From Metarhizium brunneum (lineage: Eukaryota > Ascomycota > Sordariomycetes > Hypocreales > Clavicipitaceae), in assembly GCF_013426205.1 (NCBI RefSeq), contig NC_089425.1, positions 2,046,001-2,110,000 of the forward strand: a stretch of DNA of 64,000 nucleotides. Direction: 5' to 3'. The notes beneath the pieces were generated by a model. That model did not search any database, was not told the origin of the DNA, and saw only the letters and a list, made by a program, of their open reading frames with translations. This document shows, piece after piece, positions 46,952 through 64,000 of the stretch. Every line of letters starts with the position of its first letter. Positions within the stretch are counted from its first letter, which is position 1. The translations under genes and the position numbers were made by a program.

Positions 46952-48374
46952 ATGGTTCCGCCGGCATTGGTGATAGAAGGGAAAAGCTTCACGCTGCGCA
47001 GCGTGGTTGCGGGCCTTGCTGTTGGGACGGTCATTTGTGCGGCCAATGTTTACTTTGGACTACAGACTGGCTGGGTGTCAATAATGTCCATGCCGGCGAG
47101 TCTGATGGGTTTTGGAATTTTCAAAATATTGCGACCTCATTTGACCTTCCCGTTCTCTCCAGTCGAAAATGTCCTATTGCAAAGCGTTGCCTGTGGGATG
47201 GCTATAATGCCGCTTGGATGCGGCTTCGTTGGAGTGGTTTGGCCCCCCTTCCCTTTTGCTGACAACCACGAGATATATGGCAAATTGACGCGATAACTAC
47301 AGATTCCTGCTATGAGCTACCTATTGAAACCTGATGAACAAGGGCCTATATACCTCAGCACTATACAACTCATTATTTGGTCACTTGGGCTGTGCTATTT
47401 CGGAGTTGTATTTGCTGTACCTTTGTGAGATAAACCTCTCTAGCAACTATATCACTGTGACAAAATTTTGTCGAAAACAAGAAATAAAGCCTGGCTAACA
47501 GCCGAGATTGGTCCATATCCTTTCGTAGGAGGCAGCAGGTCATTATCCGAGAGCGACTAAAATTTCCCAGTGGTTTCAGCACTGCTGTCCTCATATCAGT
47601 GCTTCATGGCAAACTGTCTCAATCTTCCAAGCCAGAGAATCTAGATAGCGCCGCACGGGGTGGTTTTGCCAGCCTAGTTCCACGTACGGCTATTCAAGAC
47701 CTCGCTGTGCCAAATACCATTACTGATAGTGGTGCCGAGAATGACATCGAAACTCAAGCAGATCCGCCACCTGACTGCGCATCAAACATGGGACTGCTTC
47801 TCATTTGTTTCCTCATTTCTGGCTTCTTCACTATACTGACGTATTTCTTGCCTATCATGCGAAATCTTCCAATATTTGGTACTGTTGCCGCAAACACTTG
47901 GCTCTGGACATTGAACCCTAGCCTCGCTTATGTTGGCCAAGGTGTTATTATGGGCACTGAGACAACACTGCATATGACGTTGGGAGCCATTGTTGGTTGG
48001 GGTATCCTCAGTCCGTTGGCAAAATTCAAGGGCTGGGCTCCAGGGCCAGTGGATGACTGGGAACATGGCAGCAAAGGATGGATTGTCTGGGTATCCCTGG
48101 CCATCATGCTGGTAGATGCCGTCGTTAGCCTCGGTTATGTTGGATGCCGTTCTATTCCCTCCTTTCCAGGAATTAGATTCATTGAAAACTTCAGCAAAAG
48201 ACTACGCAAAGCAAGAGAACACATATTTGGAGATTCACCTCTTCAGTACACCCTGCTGCAGAATCAGGACGAAGACTTTCAGCCTCATACGCCAGACACC
48301 GCCAATGATACAATGGAGGCTAGTCGCGATGGTAACGACGACGTTGATAGAAATGACGATGGCGATGACGATGG

Positions 48375-48410
<36 letters not shown>

Positions 48411-49581
48411 TCCGGCGGATCAGCGTATTGGAGGGAGGTTGGTAGTCATCGGACTTATCACTTCCATTATATTATGCATTGGAACGACCCACTTCGTGTT
48501 CGGCGATCTTGTTCCTTTATACGCAACCGTTCTTGCTGTTTTCATTGCTTTACTTTTGAGCATAATGGGTGTACGGGCGCTCGGGGAAACAGATCTCAAC
48601 CCTGTTTCAGGAATCAGCAAGCTGGCCCAGCTTTTTTTCGCCCTTATCATTCCACAGTCTAACAAGTCCAGCGTCCTGATTAATCTTGTGGCTGGTGCAG
48701 TGGTAAGCCAATTCATTCCCTTGCCATATCCCTCATAGCACATGACTATCTGTGTTGCGATGTATAACGACATGACTGGAAATATTACTAACTTACACAC
48801 TAGTCAGAAGCAGTGAGTGTTGAAGTGCCATGCGTAATACTTTGTATCACCTAACCATGTCAGGGTGCATTGCAGGCCGGGGACCTCATGCAAGACCTCA
48901 AAACTGGGCATTTACTAGGGGCTGCCCCAAACGCCCAATTTTGGGGGCAAGTGATCGGTGCCACTGCTGGAGCGATCCTGAGTGCCTTCATTTACCGAAT
49001 TTACACATCGTAAGCATTTGTTTTGCCAGATCTACGATTTTAGGGTCCATCAACTAACAGACATGACTCTTCAGGGTCTATGCGATACCGGGAGACCTTT
49101 TTCAAGTCCCTACTGCTTATGTTTGGATATTCACAGCGAGGTTAGTTACGGGGCAAGGACTACCATATATGGCTAAAGAGTGGGCTCTGGGGGCAGGAAT
49201 TGTGTTTGCTGTTACAACATTGATTCGAACCGCTGGTGTGGACAAGTGGTGGCGCCCATATGTTCCGGGAGGCATCGCTGTGGCGGTCGGTACGTTTATA
49301 TATCTATGTACCAGGGCTGACAGGCTTACTAATTTTATTCAGGAATATATAATGTACCGTCATTTACCCTTGCTCGAGCGGTAGGCGGGATCATTTGTTG
49401 GTACTGGACAAGAATTCTAGGACGATCGAATGCACAGCTCATCATTCTCGCGTCGGTACGCCAGACTTAGCTCTGTTTATCTACTTGAACATGCTAACTT
49501 TTGAAGGGTTTTATTCTTGGAGAAGGGTTCTTGAGTATTGCGAACTTGATTCTCCAGGGCCTAAAGGTGCCGCATTTATAA
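46952..49581 (+). CDS. OPT-superfamily oligopeptide/metal-chelate transporter, with 9-nt microexon
   Basis: Eight exons (46952-47236, 47303-47424, 47529-48702, 48804-48812, 48864-49009, 49075-49289, 49343-49455, 49507-49581) give 712 residues. The protein is a polytopic OPT carrier of the YSL-like branch. Signatures include EGKSFTLRSVVAGL, YFGLQTGWVSIMSMPASLMG, the NPVSGISKLAQ segment, AGDLMQDLKTGHLLGAAP and WWRPYVPGGIAVAVG. Substrates in this branch are oligopeptides or metal-chelators. Exon 4 is only nine bases (Ser-Glu-Ala) but is needed to keep the conserved EAGALQAGDL block. A poly-Asp stretch lies in a cytoplasmic loop. The first intron's GTTTGG donor is weak. The N-terminus lacks the usual leader of several dozen residues, so a further upstream exon or a true truncation is possible. 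Confidence 0.85.
48356..48415 (+). repeat. GATGAC hexamer microsatellite encoding poly-Asp
   Basis: Tandem GAYGAC/GATGAC units inside the transporter exon 3 encode an Asp run of about 12 residues, preceded by DDGDDDGDDD. Because the unit is six bases, length changes would stay in frame. Confidence 0.8.
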
Positions 49582-55555: not shown

Positions 55556-58470
55556 ATGGGTATCCCAGCTGCCTTTCGATGGCTCTCCAACAAATATCCC
55601 AAGATCATCTCACCGGTGATTGAAGACCAACCGGTTGTAATGCCGGATGGTTCTATTGTACCTGTTGATACGAGTAGTCGCAATCCGAATGGCGAGGAAT
55701 TCGATAACCTCTACCTTGATATGAACGGCATCGTTCATCCTTGTTCACATCCGGAAGACAAACCCGCGCCTGAGGATGAGGAGGCAATGATGCTCGAGGT
55801 ATTCAAGTATACAGACCGTGTCGTCAACATGGTTAGACCTCGGAAGCTCCTCATGATTGCTGTTGGTATGTAATTCTCCTACACACGGGCCAGCCCATAC
55901 TGACGAAGATTTTCTTCTAGATGGTGTTGCACCTCGCGCCAAAATGAACCAGCAACGCTCTCGACGGTTCCGATCCGCGCAAGATGCCAAAGAAAAGGAA
56001 GAGAATAAGAAGGAGCTGCTGAAACTTGTGAAACAACAAAACGGCGGAGTTCTGCCGCCGGATCACATCGAAAGTGTCGCCAAGAAAGTTTTCGACAACA
56101 ACTCCATCACACCGGGTACACCTTTCATGGATATATTGGCCGTGAGCTTGCGGTATTGGTGCCAATATAAACTAAACACGGATCCAGCCTGGGCTAAAAT
56201 GAAGGTCTTGATTTCTGATGCCACAGTCCCGGGCGAGGGCGAGCACAAAATCATGTCCTTTATTCGGTCTCAGAGAGCATCGCCGGAATACGACCCCAAT
56301 ACCCGTCATGTTATCTATGGGCTGGATGCTGATCTAATCATGCTAGGCTTAGCAACACACGAGCCGCACTTTCGAGTTCTTCGAGAAGATGTATTCTTTC
56401 AGGAAGGAAGGGCTAGAACATGCCAGCTGTGCGGACAAAAAGGACATGAAGCACGGAATTGCCGAGGCGAGGCAAAAGAGAAGGCGGACGATGTCGATGA
56501 CAAGCCTGGCAATGTTACACTCAAGCCCTTCATCTGGCTACACGTTTCGGTGCTGCGGGAGTATCTCGCAGCTGAATTAGCCGTTCCTGGATTACCATTT
56601 CGATTCGATCTGGAGCGGGCGATTGATGATTGGGTCTTCATGTGCTGCTTTGTCGGAAACGATTTTCTTCCACATCTGCCAGCCTTGGAGATCCGAGAGC
56701 ATGGCATTGATACCTTGACAACCATCTGGAGAAATAATTTGCCAACCATGGGCGGTTATGTTACAAAAGACGGACACATAGATCTAGAAAGGGCACAGCG
56801 AATTTTGGATGGTCTTGCAAAGCAAGAAGACGAGATATTCAAGCGTCGAAAAGAGCAAGAAGACCGCCGTGAGGCAAACGCAAAGCGGAGAAAGCTGCAA
56901 CAGAACAACAACTCATATCGCGGAAGCCGCGGAAGCCTTGCTGAAGACCGCAAATATGGTCACCACGATCCATCTCAGGGACTGCCTCTTTATCCTATCT
57001 CCTCATACCCTAAGGAACCACCTCGAGCTATCACTCATGATATGGTGGTGAATAAGAGCTCTGCTCAAGCCGCGAATGTTGCCAACAAAAGCGCCGCAAG
57101 CATCATTAAGGACCAAATACGAGAAGCGAATCGACATGGTTCTGTCACGACTGAGCCCGAGGCTTCATCTTCCATCTTGGGCAAGCGTAAAGCGGAATCC
57201 CAGTCGGACACGGAAACGGCCAATACAAACACTGAAGTCGGCACTGTGCAAGCTAGTAAAGCAGAGCATCCAGCGTCAGCGGAAGACCATGTTGACACAG
57301 TCCGCTTGTGGGAGGATGGGTACGCCGATAGGTATTACCAGCAGAAGTTTCACCGCAGTCCCGATGATATCTCTTTTCGACACGAGGTAGCTCGGGCGTA
57401 TGTTGAGGGGCTGGCTTGGGTCCTCCTATACTATTTTCAGGGCTGTCCTTCGTGGGAGTGGTACTACCCGTATCACTACGCCCCGTTTGCAGCGGATTTT
57501 AAAGACCTTGCGAACATGGATATCGTCTTCGAGAAGGGGAGGGTGTCCAAACCGTTCGAGCAGCTGATGAGTGTCTTGCCAGCAGCCTCACGCCACGCCC
57601 TCCCTGAAGTTTTTCACCCCTTGATGACAGATGAGGACAGCGAAATAATTGACTTTTATCCTGAAGATTTCGAAGTAGATCTGAATGGGAAAAAGATGGC
57701 ATGGCAAGGTGTCGCCTTGCTACCGTTCATTGACATGCCCAGACTGCTGGCCGCTGTGCAGACCAAGTACCCACTTCTAAGCTCTGCAGAGGCCGCGAGG
57801 AATGCTACGGGAAGAGATGTGCTTCTGTTGTCGGACAACAACGGGAGCATGTATGACGATATTTTAACCAAATTTTATTCTAAACGACAAGAATGCTCCA
57901 AATTCAAGCTGAATCCGAAAAACAGTGATGGCTTGTCGGGGAAAGTTGAGAAGCGGGATGATTATGTCCCACACGGAGCGCTGCAGTATCCTCTAGCAAG
58001 GGGTGCCATGCCGAACTTGGACTATGATAAGTCTGTTAGGTAAGCCTTGCCCAGTGTGCAGATTGAACAGTTTGAACAGAATATAACGAAGAACGCTAGC
58101 TAACGAACGCCCAACACTTTGCAGCGTCTACTATGATATGCCTCAAACATATCAAACCCATAAATCAATGTTGTTACGAGGAGCAAATCTTCCGCCTCCT
58201 GCGCTTACCCCCAGTGATGTGGAAGTTATTCGGGGTAAATCAAGGCGGGGGGGTCCTGGGGGTCCTGGGTATGGATATGGAGGAGGGCAGTACAATAGTG
58301 ATAGACGAAGAGGTCCTAGGGCTCCTAATTTTGCGCCACAGGCCCCATGGCGCCCACCGCCTCCTGGTGGCCGCGGCTTTGGGATAGGAGTTCCGCCGCC
58401 GCCGCCGCCAGCATATGGTGGTAACCAATCGAGATATCAGGGGTGGAATAATAACGTGCGTAGGTGGTAG
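55556..58470 (+). CDS. rat1: nuclear 5'-3' exoribonuclease Rat1/Xrn2
   Basis: Exons 55556-55865, 55921-58039 and 58125-58470 encode 924 residues, the usual fungal Rat1 length. It degrades 5'-monophosphate RNA in the nucleus, in rRNA/snoRNA processing and torpedo termination. The catalytic N-terminus starts [15 protein letters not shown] and has the acidic active-site motifs [54 protein letters not shown] and [16 protein letters not shown] zinc knuckle ([14 protein letters not shown]), normal in nuclear Rat1 but not cytoplasmic Xrn1, sits at about residue 265. The C-terminus is a Gly/Pro-rich tail ([23 protein letters not shown]) ending NVRRW. The last intron restores Ser. It is divergent from Uso1. 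Confidence 0.97.
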
Positions 58471-58861: not shown

Positions 58862-61800
58862 TTATTTTGTTCTATGTCCACTGTATCTAGTCGCTGGCCA
58901 GCCCTGCATTGTCCAATTGTTTTCTACCGTATCACCACCCATAATTAGTGTGTGCTCGAGCAGGCAGCTATCGTCTTTCATCTTTGCCCCGCTGAGCAGC
59001 CGGCTGCCAGTTCGTAAAACGCAACGGTTCCCAATTTCTAAGCGATTGAGATCGAATTTACCACGTGTGTTAATATGAGCAACGACACTGGCGTCATCTA
59101 CGGTCACCCTGTCGCCAAGAGTGATTAGATCTGGCTCAGTAAACATTAAGTTCGGGCGGCCATTTGCAAACAACGCGCAGTCGTTTCCGATTTTAGCACC
59201 CAGGGCTCGAAAGTACAGGACTATCCAGTTTGTGCCAGTCAAGAGACCAAGAATGCCCTGGCCACGATAACAGTGTTTGCGGAGCCTTTCAATGCTTAGG
59301 AAGAGCTGCCACCGTTGGCAGTACGGTGACTTGTCCCAGTCATAATTGCCAGGCTGTCGCCAACCAATCAATACCCACTTTGATGCTATGACAATACAAA
59401 GTGTCAAAATAGCTTGAAGCGATGTCAGTATAGCAAAGACAAGTGTACACAAGCTAAACAGCACCCCGGTCTCGTAAAGGATGCTGTTGTTTCGAGCAAT
59501 GAACCGATTCATAAGATAGTCCACCAACTGAATCGAAGAGATGTTTGGTATGTTCCAGTAGAAAGCAGTAAATACGGTCATAAACGAAGAATAGCAGAAG
59601 ATGGCGAAGGGTCCAAGAACACAATATGGAGCCAGCTTTAGATAGAAAGCCTTCCCAAACGGCGAGATTGTTTCAGGGACGCGCGACTCGTCGTCCGTAT
59701 CACCACCACCACCACCACTAGTCTGGAAAGACTCCATGTTCTCCGATGTGTGCGACTCGGTTAAAGTGTCGTCACTGCTTATACGTTGGATTCGCGTTCC
59801 TGGTGACAGTGTCTTGGAAATGCTTCGGTTACCGACCAAAGTATCGTCGCTGCCCAGATGACGGATCCTTTGTCGGGGGTTCTGCTTCGCTCTGTCTCCC
59901 GCTGATAAACATATGGCATCGCGTCCTTTCGATCCTACGTATGTAGCACCAGCCTTATATTTCTTGTTTCTGCTTGTCAAGGCACCAGATCCCATCGTGG
60001 TTCGCTCGCCAATATCTACTCCGGGAAGGAGACAGACTCTATCTGCAATCATAGCGCCGTCCCTAATTACAATGGGCTCAGACCCCATGCCATCAGATGT
60101 TATGAGATGTGCTCGAGAGCCGAATACCACATCATTGCCCACATCGAGTAGGTGATAGTCGCCGATGCTAGGTCCGGTTCCCGGCCAGTAAACTCGTTTA
60201 CCAATCTTACTCCCCAGCATACGCAGCGCAATCGACGTCGCTTCGTAGTGTTGACCAAACATTGCCGTCATATCACGCAGTCGAGAAGCGGGCAAAAGGC
60301 TCTTCATCAGATTTGCTCGCCAGGTCGAAATGGTACCGTCATGTTCTGTCTGGTGGAGCAGACTGGGCTTCCCAAATATCGCATCCAGAACAAGTTTGAC
60401 GGATATCGAGAACGCGAATACGATAAAGGGGCTGAAAAAAGACCTCAGAATCAAAGCGAGATAGTGAAATGCAACACGTCTGGGTTCCGTAAACCAATCC
60501 AGCATGTTTCGAATCGGCGTACCAGCAACCGCAGGCTTCTGAACAACCATGCCAACCAACCCTCCAATCCAAGGCGTGAGAGACAAGAACCAAGATATCA
60601 GCCGCAAGGGTGTAGTAAGCAGAATCGTCAGCAGCCAGTGAGGTCGTGGTACCGTACCCTGTGAAAGGTGTCGGTTTTCTTCGTCCGCATCCTGCAACTC
60701 CCAACTTGAAGAGTTTGGTCCAATGCACGTGTTTGGGGGGACTTCCGTGCCGGCCGCTACGATGGATGATGTTCCAACAGAAGACCGCTCTCCGATAGTG
60801 ATTTTTCCTAGATACATGGATGTGTTTCCTTCGGCTGCAAAGGGTCGGCATATGCAGCGACTCAGGACGGCGCTGTCGCGGATATCTAGAAGATCCCACT
60901 CCCCCAATGATGCTCCGGCAAGCTTGACATTCTTTCCAATTCTCGCACCCATGAGTTTACAGTACCACGTCTGGGTCGTATCATTCAAGCCGAACCACCC
61001 TTTGCCAGTGACACTGACGACCTTCTGGACCATCCACCATCTCGTATGATATGACCCCCACATCGGGTAGAGGCCTTCACGATACCGGCCTATGATGATC
61101 CACTTGGCAAGGATACCTACGAAGGGAGCGACAAGCCTGACGACCATTCTAGAAAATAGAATACTCAGTGTGAGATTGAGGAGCCGGCCGGGAGCAGTTG
61201 TATTGGTTGGCCAACCCTGCGTACAGCTAAACGCCACGATAAATATGGTCCATTGGAAAGCGCGGCGTAGCGGATACAAGATGACGAGGGGGATCAGTTG
61301 AATCGCCATCAGGAATGGATTTGTCGAGCTGTTCGTTTTTGTACATCCAACGACTTCGTCTTCAGTCCCGCTAGCTATGCTTGTTGGCGCAACCTTGTCC
61401 ACGTAGGCCGAAATGGCTTGAATAGAGCCAGAGTTAAAAATGACGTTGATGGGAATCTGAATGCCGAATTCGCTCCTCACAGCTGAAGAAAGACGGCCGG
61501 CACGGAGAGAGTCGCCACCAAGACTGAAAAAATCGATGTCTCTGGGCAACTGAGCAGGGTGGCAATAGAGCATATTCGCAAACACTTTGGCCACCTTTCC
61601 CTCTGTTGAATCGGCCAGCTTGTCCATAGACGCCTCAAGCAATCTATCCACCACAACCTGGAGTTTGTCATCGTCCACTCGTCCTCCATCATCGGCAGGA
61701 AGCGGCTCTTCTAGTAAGTGAACTGTTTCCGGTACCATGTAGTTATGAAGGGAGCCACAGAGATGTTCTTTCAGGTCTGTCGCGAACGCCGTGGAAGGCG

Positions 61801-64000
61801 GTGGGTAAATCCGTTTCGCTGGAGCGCAGAATAGTTCCGGCATATCCTCTGTACTTCGCCGGCGCACGTGGCATCTCACATCAGCCGATGCTGCGGCACC
61901 CAGTGATTGTTGTATTGCCTCCGGGTCAATACAACAGGGAGCACATTCAATCGACACAGACAACGCCGTGTCAGGAGCAGGGCATATTGCCTCCCAGTGT
62001 CTTCGCAGGTATGGTATGTTTTCGCTAAGGACCGGCAAACCAAGCCTTTGCCCAAGTTTGATTCGTAGCACCTTATTGTTCTTCTTTGGTAGGTCATCCA
62101 TGTATACTATTAGTGTCGGCCACTTTACTTGCTGCAACGAGGAGCGTAGTGCGTTCTGAAGTCTTTTCAAGTCAACCCTGGGTTTACCAGGCGGTGTTAC
62201 GAGCACCACAGCGGCAACCTCCTGAAGAACGTCATGTGATGCTGAGAATGCCATTACTTGGCTGACTTTGCCCTTGATGGGGGAGGTTGGTGATAGTGAC
62301 GCGTTCATGATTGCATTTTCAACCTCAAAGGGCGAAATTATTTCTCCCCCGCGGTTAATAACTTCTTTGCTTCTTCCCGTAATGTAAAGGTAGTCGTCAC
62401 TGTCCATGTAGCCCAAATCACCCGTATCAAACCACCCGTCAGTGTTAAACGAAGATTTATCGAACGAGCCGTCGGGCAGCAAATAGCCAGGGAAAACAGG
62501 GTCACCTCGGACGCAAATCCTGCCAACCACCCCAGGGCCGACCTTGCAATCTGACAAGTCCAGTATAGTAAGCTCCGGGCCGATGCTGATGCCGGAAGTT
62601 CCTTCTCGACCAGACTCAAGCTGAAGCGGTGGTGTTGATATTGGCATACATCTGAAACAAGGCATTAGCAACTTCTCTCTCAACTTTGCTCCATTATTTA
62701 TTCGACTCGGAGGCAATGCGTTTCAGGTGAGCTCAGACAGGCCAGAACATACTCCGTCATCCCATAGCTTGGTAAAACAAGGCAGTTAAAGGTATCGCAA
62801 AGTTGAGTGGCCAACGACGGCAAAAGTCCTCCTGCAGCGTTACATATGAGTCTAATTTTGCTCCTTTTCAGCGAGCCTGGTCGTTCAAGTGCCTGAGCGA
62901 GAATGACGGAGTGTATAGAAGGAGACGCATAGTACCATGTTGGCTCCAGGGATTCCACAACATCCCAAAATAAATTCGGATCGAATGCAGTGCAGCAGAC
63001 CGTAGATCCTCCAGAAAATATAGGCGCAAGTATATTTCTGACTAATCCGCCGCTTTTGAATCGTTAGCCGCGGTATCAAAGTATCCGGCTTTGAATCCGG
63101 TAAAGTAAATCAACACTTACACATGATACAGGGGCATCATATTCAGGCATGTGTCTACTGGGCTCAGAGCCCAGGAATCCATGACAAATACCACTCCAGC
63201 AACTATCGAATGCAGTTTCATTGGAACGACCTTCTTCGTTCCGGATGTACCGCTAGTAAAAAGGATCAAGGCAATATCGTCAGGTGCATTTGGTCGTGGG
63301 CGTGTGTCGTGGGGCTTCAAAACATGTCCGGCAGTATTGAGAATACGAATGTCATCACGATTATTCCAGTCAACGACGAAAATTTCTATATTTTCGTCAC
63401 TGGCCCATTCATCTCCTAGCTGTAACTTCTCGTAGTCCTGTGAGCTGGTCAAGATGACCTTTGCACCTGACTGTAGCACGTCGGCTCGAAATTGCTCTAT
63501 CCCAGCCATTGGGTTGATCGGGGCAGCAGTGTGATAGGTAGTGACGGCGATGCATGTTGCCGCCAGAAGCGGTCCATTGGGAAGGGCAATAGCAACAACC
63601 GGTTTCCGTTCCGCAGGGCCGACAGCCAGGGGGAAAGTTGCGACAAAGTCATGCAACCCTTTATGTGTAATAAATTGGTCTGGATTCGTTGCTCGCAGCG
63701 CTGGACGTGAATCGTGACAAATAAAATCCAACAATGACCCGTATGAGTCTTTAATCATCGCCGATATCGTTTGCCTAAACTTCGCAACCTCTCTTGCAGG
63801 ATTTGACTTGAGTTGTTTAGGTAGGAGCTTCGAGAGTCTTGCATAACATCGTATAAGTGGTATCGTGGGCCATGGACCAGGCACCTGTGTTAGTAGAGCG
63901 TGCAAGAGGTGCAAAGAACGTTCAGCTTGCTCAACAGTATCCGGAATCGATGCCAAAATGTCCCCCTTGTCCCATTGGCAACCGTCCAGACTACCTTCCA
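58862..64000 (-). CDS. NRPS-like enzyme of Pls/PosA architecture (A-T-membrane/beta-helix), 5' end outside window
   Basis: Three exons are seen (63121->64000, 62753-63052, 58862-62651), giving at least 1656 residues; the frame is open to the window edge, so the start is missing. Order: an unassigned helical leader; an ACS-like adenylation domain (LILFTSGTSGTKK, SYGMTECMPIS, FDTGDLGYMD, YITGRSKEVINRGGEIISP, KKNNKVLRIKL); a second, partial adenylation C-terminal subdomain (SLHNYMVPETVHLLEEPLPA, where the usual NGKVDR Lys is Arg in DGGRVD); a carrier domain (DFFSLGGDSLRAGRL); then several membrane helices alternating with three LbH hexapeptide blocks (KLMGARIG, RMLGSKIG, RALGAKIG). This is the layout of Pls/PosA synthetases, such as epsilon-poly-lysine synthetase, where C-terminal soluble domains join monomers. 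Product unknown. Introns restore E-C (MTECMPIS) and V-G (YHVGGLV). Confidence 0.85.

Follow-up and report, generated by a model that had tools for sequence, protein, structure and literature searches.

What a membrane-bound, NRPS-like synthetase would make in a fungus is the question raised by the gene at one end of the window, the whole 64,000-nucleotide stretch of Metarhizium brunneum DNA analysed here. We modelled the gene and its domains (Table 1). The start ATG was located at position 64097 on the minus strand, just beyond the window edge, on the side where an earlier note on this DNA had expected the N-terminus, and the stop lies at 58862. The gene model, the domain profiles and a structure model all confirmed the layout observed in that note, with adenylation and carrier domains followed by a membrane and beta-helix part, and the condensation domain that it had reported missing was indeed absent. 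A length of at least 1550 residues was found for 103 of the 174 homologues among the matches listed. The neighbours are housekeeping genes, unlike a secondary-metabolite cluster. Polymalate synthetase of the Aureobasidium type is associated with a Crz1-controlled promoter; a scan of 1600 nt upstream for Crz1-type sites detected one GNGGCKCA against 0.23 expected and none of the three other patterns, a count too low to be informative.

Table 1. Positions of the gene and of its predicted features in the window
Feature	Position	Strand	Remarks
Gene, three exons, 1688 aa	58862..64000, start outside window	(-)	first ATG in frame
Exon 1	63121..64000, running on to 64097	(-)	
Intron 1	63053-63120	(-)	68 nt, GTAAGT...AG
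Exon 2	62753..63052	(-)	
Intron 2	62652-62752	(-)	101 nt, GTATGT...CAG
Exon 3 including stop codon	58862..62651	(-)	
Adenylation core, acyl-CoA-synthetase type, residues 163-483	62480..63611	(-)	PF00501 E 7e-48; both introns cut through
HVGGLVRN pocket-helix motif, residues 325-332	63034..63125	(-)	split by intron 1; Arg331 at 63037-63039
First A-domain C-terminal subdomain, residues about 528-628	62045..62347	(-)	catalytic Lys in KKNNKVLR
Relic second NRPS-type A-domain C-terminal subdomain, residues about 665-761	61646..61936	(-)	A10 Lys lost
Carrier (T) domain, LGGDSL, Ser807	61400..61594	(-)	PF00550 E 4e-11
TM helix pair 1	61091..61294	(-)	model; hydropathy peak 2.07 second helix, none first
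C1 beta-helix block	60704..60961	(-)	model; TIGR02353 positions 2-192 cover TM pair 1 + C1
TM helix pair 2	60374..60637	(-)	model; hydropathy 1.66 and 2.06
C2 beta-helix block with YWPG(T/S)G	59900..60208	(-)	model
TM helix pair 3	59366..59611	(-)	model; hydropathy 2.56 second helix, none first
C3 beta-helix block	58886..59191	(-)	model; TIGR02353 positions 580-695
HINTRG, residues 1618-1623	59060..59077	(-)	His1618 candidate catalytic base; site of HxFxDR in Pls/PosA

We compared the protein with the Pls/PosA enzymes (epsilon-poly-L-lysine and delta-poly-L-ornithine synthetases, and the fungal Epls), which link a diamino acid into a homopolymer through isopeptide bonds. It shares with them the domain order, the carrier, the C1-C3 units and the C3 His, and its C-terminal half matched the TIGR02353 profile with an E value of 1e-55. 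This supports the Pls/PosA homology proposed in the earlier note but not membership of that family, as the score of 189 bits lies under the curated cut-off of 423.1; the bacterial relatives L021 and L022 scored 182.7 and 166.4 bits. In the C-terminal comparison and tree, which leave out locus L052, the query showed 17.6-22.5% identity to 11 canonical sequences, a narrow set of nine from one bacterial order, one from Myxococcota and one Epls. The protein also differs from Pls/PosA in its acyl-CoA-type A domain, a relic A-domain C-terminal subdomain, the missing A4 Asp and HxNTRG in place of the C3 HxFxDR. Since it misses the cut-off and lacks the A4 Asp and HxFxDR, and since a true Pls (Epls, 540 bits with TIGR02353) is encoded on another contig of the same genome (G000:C2), the identification as an epsilon-poly-lysine/PosA enzyme was abandoned; epsilon-poly-lysine synthetase in particular was rejected in view of this separate canonical copy. 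The fungal precedent named in the earlier note does exist (PMC7179176), and an epsilon-poly-lysine cluster of M. brunneum has already been published (PMC11457142). By its sequence, the enzyme belongs to a sister family of Pls/PosA.

The A domain indeed resembles an acyl-CoA synthetase, as had been suspected: the core matched PF00501, the PDB sequences closest to it were the oxalyl-CoA synthetases 6qjz, 5ie0 and 8aff, and the domain was closest to oxalyl- and malonyl-CoA synthetases, with other acyl-CoA synthetases scoring only slightly lower. Its fold and motifs are like those of oxalyl-CoA synthetase (AAE3/Pcs60) and MatB, but these enzymes stand alone, whereas here a carrier and membrane domains are fused on. 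The pocket differs as well, with HVGG..RN and TECMP standing where the three oxalyl enzymes displayed have HVHG and TEA(S/T)H; the available part of the paper on the grass-pea oxalyl-CoA synthetase does not give pocket residues (PMC9935904). That the protein is a peroxisomal CoA synthetase, as suggested by database names and the similarity to Pcs60, was already disfavoured and is highly improbable, with a carrier and membrane domains coming after the A domain and a PTS1-like end ([SAC][KRH][LM]) in just one of 174 rows, some of them possibly incomplete.

In the alignment, HVGGLVRN occupies the position of FDxS..E in NRPS A domains, and Arg331, which pairs with PosA Glu221 when a one-residue gap is allowed, is a candidate pocket residue. 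Asp217 and Glu221 of PosA are described as binding the amino acid and its side chain (PMC10522769). The amino-acid A4 motif (F/Y)DxS..E was found at A4 in none of the aligned rows, versus 11 of 11 canonical enzymes. A loose Asp-motif pattern matched three of the 174 rows of the fungal list and two of the four bacterial rows; the bacterial rows displayed in the alignment carry HxGG at the A4 site. Of the monomers that the earlier note had considered possible, another carboxylic or amino acid, an amino acid is probably not the right one. A non-standard amino acid might still be homopolymerised as PosA does it, for example via the side-chain carboxyl. This would agree with the homology to a poly-amino-acid polymerising domain, but it appears improbable for an A domain that is not of the amino-acid type and lacks the A4 motif in the aligned rows, in a protein that has also lost HxFxDR.

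Two A-domain C-terminal subdomains were found ahead of the carrier. The first gave a PF13193 match on residues 554-618 (E 6e-4; 21 bits, under the cut-off of 24.5), and its catalytic Lys was present in 105 of 105 measured rows, out of 179. The second aligned with the Pls/PosA A-domain C-terminus by hhalign (E 9.2e-11 at a probability of 97.0, against 0.9 for the best among 40 shuffles); the fungal rows P0150, P0155 and P0163 were excluded from these alignments by a motif rule. Its detection required the profile comparison, Pfam alone being insufficient: the isolated pieces from the window and from L022 gave no Pfam match, and that from L021 gave a sub-threshold AMP-binding_C match (E 0.076). 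Of 179 rows, 159 yielded a reading for the second A10 residue and 105 for the first, with patterns that may misplace some rows. This relic NRPS A-domain piece ahead of the carrier points to a domain swap, in which a Pls-like ancestor would have had its amino-acid-activating core exchanged for a complete acyl-CoA-ligase A domain, leaving behind a dead remnant of the ancestral A-domain C-terminus.

The C-terminal part was modelled as six membrane helices in three pairs, with three left-handed beta-helices, and a hydropathy peak was found for four of the six helices. The YWPG(T/S)G motif was present in 166 of 174 rows of the fungal list and all four bacterial rows, and in none of the 11 canonical sequences. 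Conversely, HxFxDR in C3, by our own definition set after inspecting the alignment, occurred in 0/174 fungal-list and 0/4 bacterial rows, where HxNTRG replaces it, versus 11/11 canonical ones. In structure matches, the beta-helix fold matched O- and N-acetyltransferases, and no solved Pls polymerising domain was among the matches listed. As a beta-helix O-acyltransferase, the enzyme might, rather than build a polymer, take a single acyl unit off the carrier and attach it to a sugar, a membrane lipid or a polymer of the wall. This fits the acetyltransferase fold, the location among housekeeping genes and the absence of evidence for polymerisation, but we regard it as unlikely, because all of the C1-C3 units and membrane pairs of the known polymerising domain are retained, and an enzyme described with similar domains makes polymalate.

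That enzyme is the polymalate synthetase of Aureobasidium melanogenum (QHD40385.1; 5049 bp, 1682 aa), whose description gives A-like, T and C-like domains, six membrane segments and no thioesterase, as in the 1688-residue protein here; the comparison is by description only. The membrane segments are C-terminal here versus N-terminal in polymalate synthetase according to one review, and for A. pullulans an alternative route by a malate-CoA ligase and an unknown polymerase has been proposed. The Aureobasidium sequence was not among the best 120 of the 583, 964 and 1226 matches of three protein searches. The two enzymes may be kin. Since this similar enzyme has already been described, the "undescribed chemistry" anticipated for the locus is doubtful.

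Our tentative proposal, which we put just short of an even chance, is a membrane-bound, iterative A-T-polymerase enzyme of core-swapped, Pls-like origin that polymerises a non-amino, likely hydroxy-dicarboxylic acid via ester bonds, perhaps to a polymalate-like product. The A domain would take a small carboxylic acid that has no alpha-amino group, activate it by forming the AMP ester and load it onto Ser807 of the carrier; the likeliest substrate is a C4-type hydroxy-dicarboxylate, for example L-malate. The C-terminal machine of Pls/PosA lineage, with His1618 as its probable base, would couple the units head to tail by ester rather than amide bonds, and the growing chain would be passed into or across the membrane. 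With the front part replaced by a loader of small non-amino acids, the polymer made is probably not poly-lysine but another one, perhaps poly-malic acid or a similar polyester.

All of the named fungal relatives among the matches listed are Sordariomycetes, including Trichoderma reesei RUT C-30. Bacterial relatives were found in three Novosphingobium genomes, where the gene adjoins a phosphopantetheinyl transferase gene, and one Myxococcales MAG; 31 viral pattern matches included no true relative. When 396, 377 and 385 genomes around the Novosphingobium and Myxococcales matches were searched (thresholds 1e-10, 1e-25 and 1e-25), the only family-level relatives were the starting genomes themselves, which is weak evidence of rarity, since the draws missed two other known Novosphingobium holders. 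Weaker matches came from 11 further genomes of the 396-genome draw and two of the 377-genome draw; of 11 stretches taken, with G315 and G355 (396-genome draw) and G747 (377-genome draw) left out, 10 were usable, two of these 10 from one genome, and all 10 were of the canonical Pls/PosA type. It is conceivable, although we hold this with more reserve, that a whole Pls branch was turned from amide to ester formation by the core swap, and that a gene widely kept in Sordariomycetes and in a few bacteria makes polymalate-like polyesters; we found no report in the literature of such polyesters being sought in these organisms. If true, this would give a function to a fungal gene that is conserved widely and now often goes by the name 'peroxisomal-coenzyme A synthetase'. 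Polymalate synthetase would then derive from a Pls-type polymerase whose activation domain was swapped and in which the scar can still be seen. The reading would also predict polyester production for many fungi and some bacteria, and would provide paired amide- and ester-forming relatives in one genome for dissecting the uncharacterised Pls polymerising domain.

The adjoining sequence on the right, where the earlier note had expected the N-terminus of the synthetase, was fetched from the 37.8-Mb, seven-contig genome that holds the window, and indeed contains the start of the gene (an M. brunneum assembly in seven chromosomes is described in the accessible text of PMC7842015). The C-terminal half of the encoded protein was 100% identical to the M. 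brunneum protein P0001 in the protein search. A Pfam run on 13 neighbouring open frames, the four nearest and nine further left, gave no evident biosynthetic cluster among them, two of the nine having no Pfam match.

Synthetase gene, Pfam-assigned neighbours and canonical enzyme of the same genome
Feature	Position	Strand	Remarks
Kinase, tRNA synthetase, Sfi1, Rav1, OPT transporter, Uso1, CDC20-type WD40	further left		7 of 9 frames (Pfam)
OPT-family oligopeptide transporter	window 47599-48735	plus	about 10 kb from synthetase
XRN-type exonuclease	55857-58043		among 4 nearest frames (Pfam)
Synthetase gene	start 64097	minus	three exons, 1688 residues
RRM protein, Syf1, poly(A)-polymerase-head protein	right of synthetase		among 4 nearest frames (Pfam)
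Canonical epsilon-poly-L-lysine synthetase (Epls type)	locus L018 3967-8013, contig G000:C2	plus	single exon

Three protein searches (E <= 1e-3) returned 583, 964 and 1226 matches, of which 120 were listed per search (174 distinct). Among the matches listed, 103 of the 174 reach at least 1550 aa, and the named proteins, alongside many nameless rows, all come from genera that we take to belong to the class Sordariomycetes. A scan of 84,980 prokaryote species, one genome each, with two peptide patterns gave 46 matches, including at least four relatives, three from Novosphingobium and one from a Myxococcales MAG. The database names 'peroxisomal-coenzyme A synthetase' and 'oxalate--CoA ligase', carried by P0001, P0002, P0068 and others, seem to be misnomers for this family. 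Of the 174 matches listed, 1 has a PTS1-like end.

The same genome also encodes a canonical Epls-type synthetase (C2:1022863-1024938), which scored 542 bits against the Pls/PosA polymerising-domain family TIGR02353 (540 for the full protein) and whose A domain matched the epsilon-poly-lysine synthase structure 7wew with an E-value of 1.4e-184. An epsilon-poly-lysine cluster has already been reported in M. brunneum, according to the accessible text of PMC11457142. The possibility that our synthetase is itself the poly-lysine enzyme was rejected in view of this separate copy and of our synthetase's distance from canonical enzymes in A-domain motif, C3 motif and identity. Canonical A domains carry (F/Y)DxS..E, whereas the synthetase has HVGGLVRN at that place; in PosA, Asp217 and Glu221 in the A-domain stretch are essential to substrate activation, with Glu221 bonding the side-chain amino group (PMC10522769, accessible text). 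The canonical set was narrow (n=11), comprising the C2 enzyme, nine enzymes of the order to which the Novosphingobium genome belongs (two of these nine share one genome) and one from Myxococcota. When patterns picked after inspecting an alignment were counted, HxGG..RN was present in 99 of the 103 proteins of at least 1550 aa among the matches listed, in 4/4 bacterial relatives and in 0/11 canonical enzymes (105/174 across all lengths among the matches listed, many of the 174 being without an A domain). In C3, HxNTRG occurred in 159/174 of the matches listed, 4/4 bacterial relatives and 0/11 canonical enzymes, and HxFxDR in 0/174, 0/4 and 11/11, respectively. Over the C-terminal part, identity to the synthetase was 17.6-22.5% for the 11 canonical enzymes and 31.7-32.7% for the four bacterial relatives; over the A domain, it was 19.6-22.5% and 40.7-43.2%, respectively. 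The tree of the C-terminal part grouped 14 fungal with 4 bacterial sequences in a clade of support 100, within which the fungal clade was supported by only 58. Separately, five loci in the Novosphingobium genome's order (L055-L058, L060) form a second canonical subgroup, whose A domain has YDSS(L/I)EE in place of FDMS(L/V)E; their substrate may differ.

A second stretch separates the carrier from the C-terminal piece that belongs to the A domain itself. Missed by Pfam alone in the window's protein, it matched, as a profile of 14 sequences, the canonical Pls/PosA A-domain C-terminus (probability 97.0, E 9.2e-11, 90 columns). The first, working piece matched the same canonical profile (94.1, 1.2e-7), and profile comparison gave no match between the two pieces (4.3); among the controls for the second stretch, the best of forty column shuffles scored 0.9, and reversing the profile gave 0.2. 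The corresponding lysine is that of GKVD in NRPSs. It is kept in all 105 proteins measured, out of 179, for the first piece, and in only 11 of 159 measured for the second. On these sequence grounds, we read the second stretch as what probably remains of an original adenylation domain for amino acids, whose core would have been displaced by a whole acyl-CoA-ligase domain.

In all three Novosphingobium loci (L019-L021), the synthetase is preceded by a gene resembling, by eye, an outer-membrane receptor (no Pfam match at 1e-5 in L021) and followed by a phosphopantetheinyl-transferase-like gene, Pfam-confirmed in L021; a histidine kinase lies ahead of the receptor-like gene in L019 and L021. Farther away, L021 has genes for a TonB receptor and for cation efflux (Pfam-confirmed), L020 has look-alikes, and L019 has a receptor plus, by eye only, a ferritin-like gene. 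Since TonB receptor, cation-efflux and ferritin-like genes lie nearby, a metal-related use of these synthetases is faintly hinted at.

In the titles, abstract beginnings and passages searched, mostly from outside subscription papers, the family was neither named nor described; it may be present unnamed among the 'NRPS-like' regions of genome papers (e.g. PMC10989895 and PMC11457142). The accessible texts of PMC9210645, PMC11905612 and PMC10751350 describe an Aureobasidium melanogenum polymalate synthetase gene of 5049 bp, under Crz1 control; the enzyme combines adenylation, thiolation and condensation-like domains with six transmembrane segments and lacks a thioesterase. Removing the gene left growth unaffected, and restoring it brought back one third of the product. 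The gene length equals 1682 codons plus stop, against 1688 residues in our synthetase, a likeness by description only, and canonical Pls/PosA frames are 1303-1416 in length. Counting against a match, the accessible text of the review PMC9210645 places the six segments N-terminally, and a malate-CoA-ligase route has been proposed in A. pullulans. On balance, we favour placing the polymalate synthetase in the same family.

From family knowledge, a carboxylic acid would be converted to its acyl-AMP and loaded onto Ser807. The motif loss supports a substrate without an alpha-amino group, whose second carboxylate might be held by Arg331, speculatively, as that residue is aligned only by opening a gap of one residue. 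Inside the C1-C3 assembly, transfer would then proceed with His1618 as the putative base, since His occurs in both families, and the membrane domain suggests a subsequent export step. The change from HxFxDR to HxNTRG, together with the polymalate precedent, points to units joined through an ester bond and, more tentatively, the synthetase itself might make polymalate or a related polyester.
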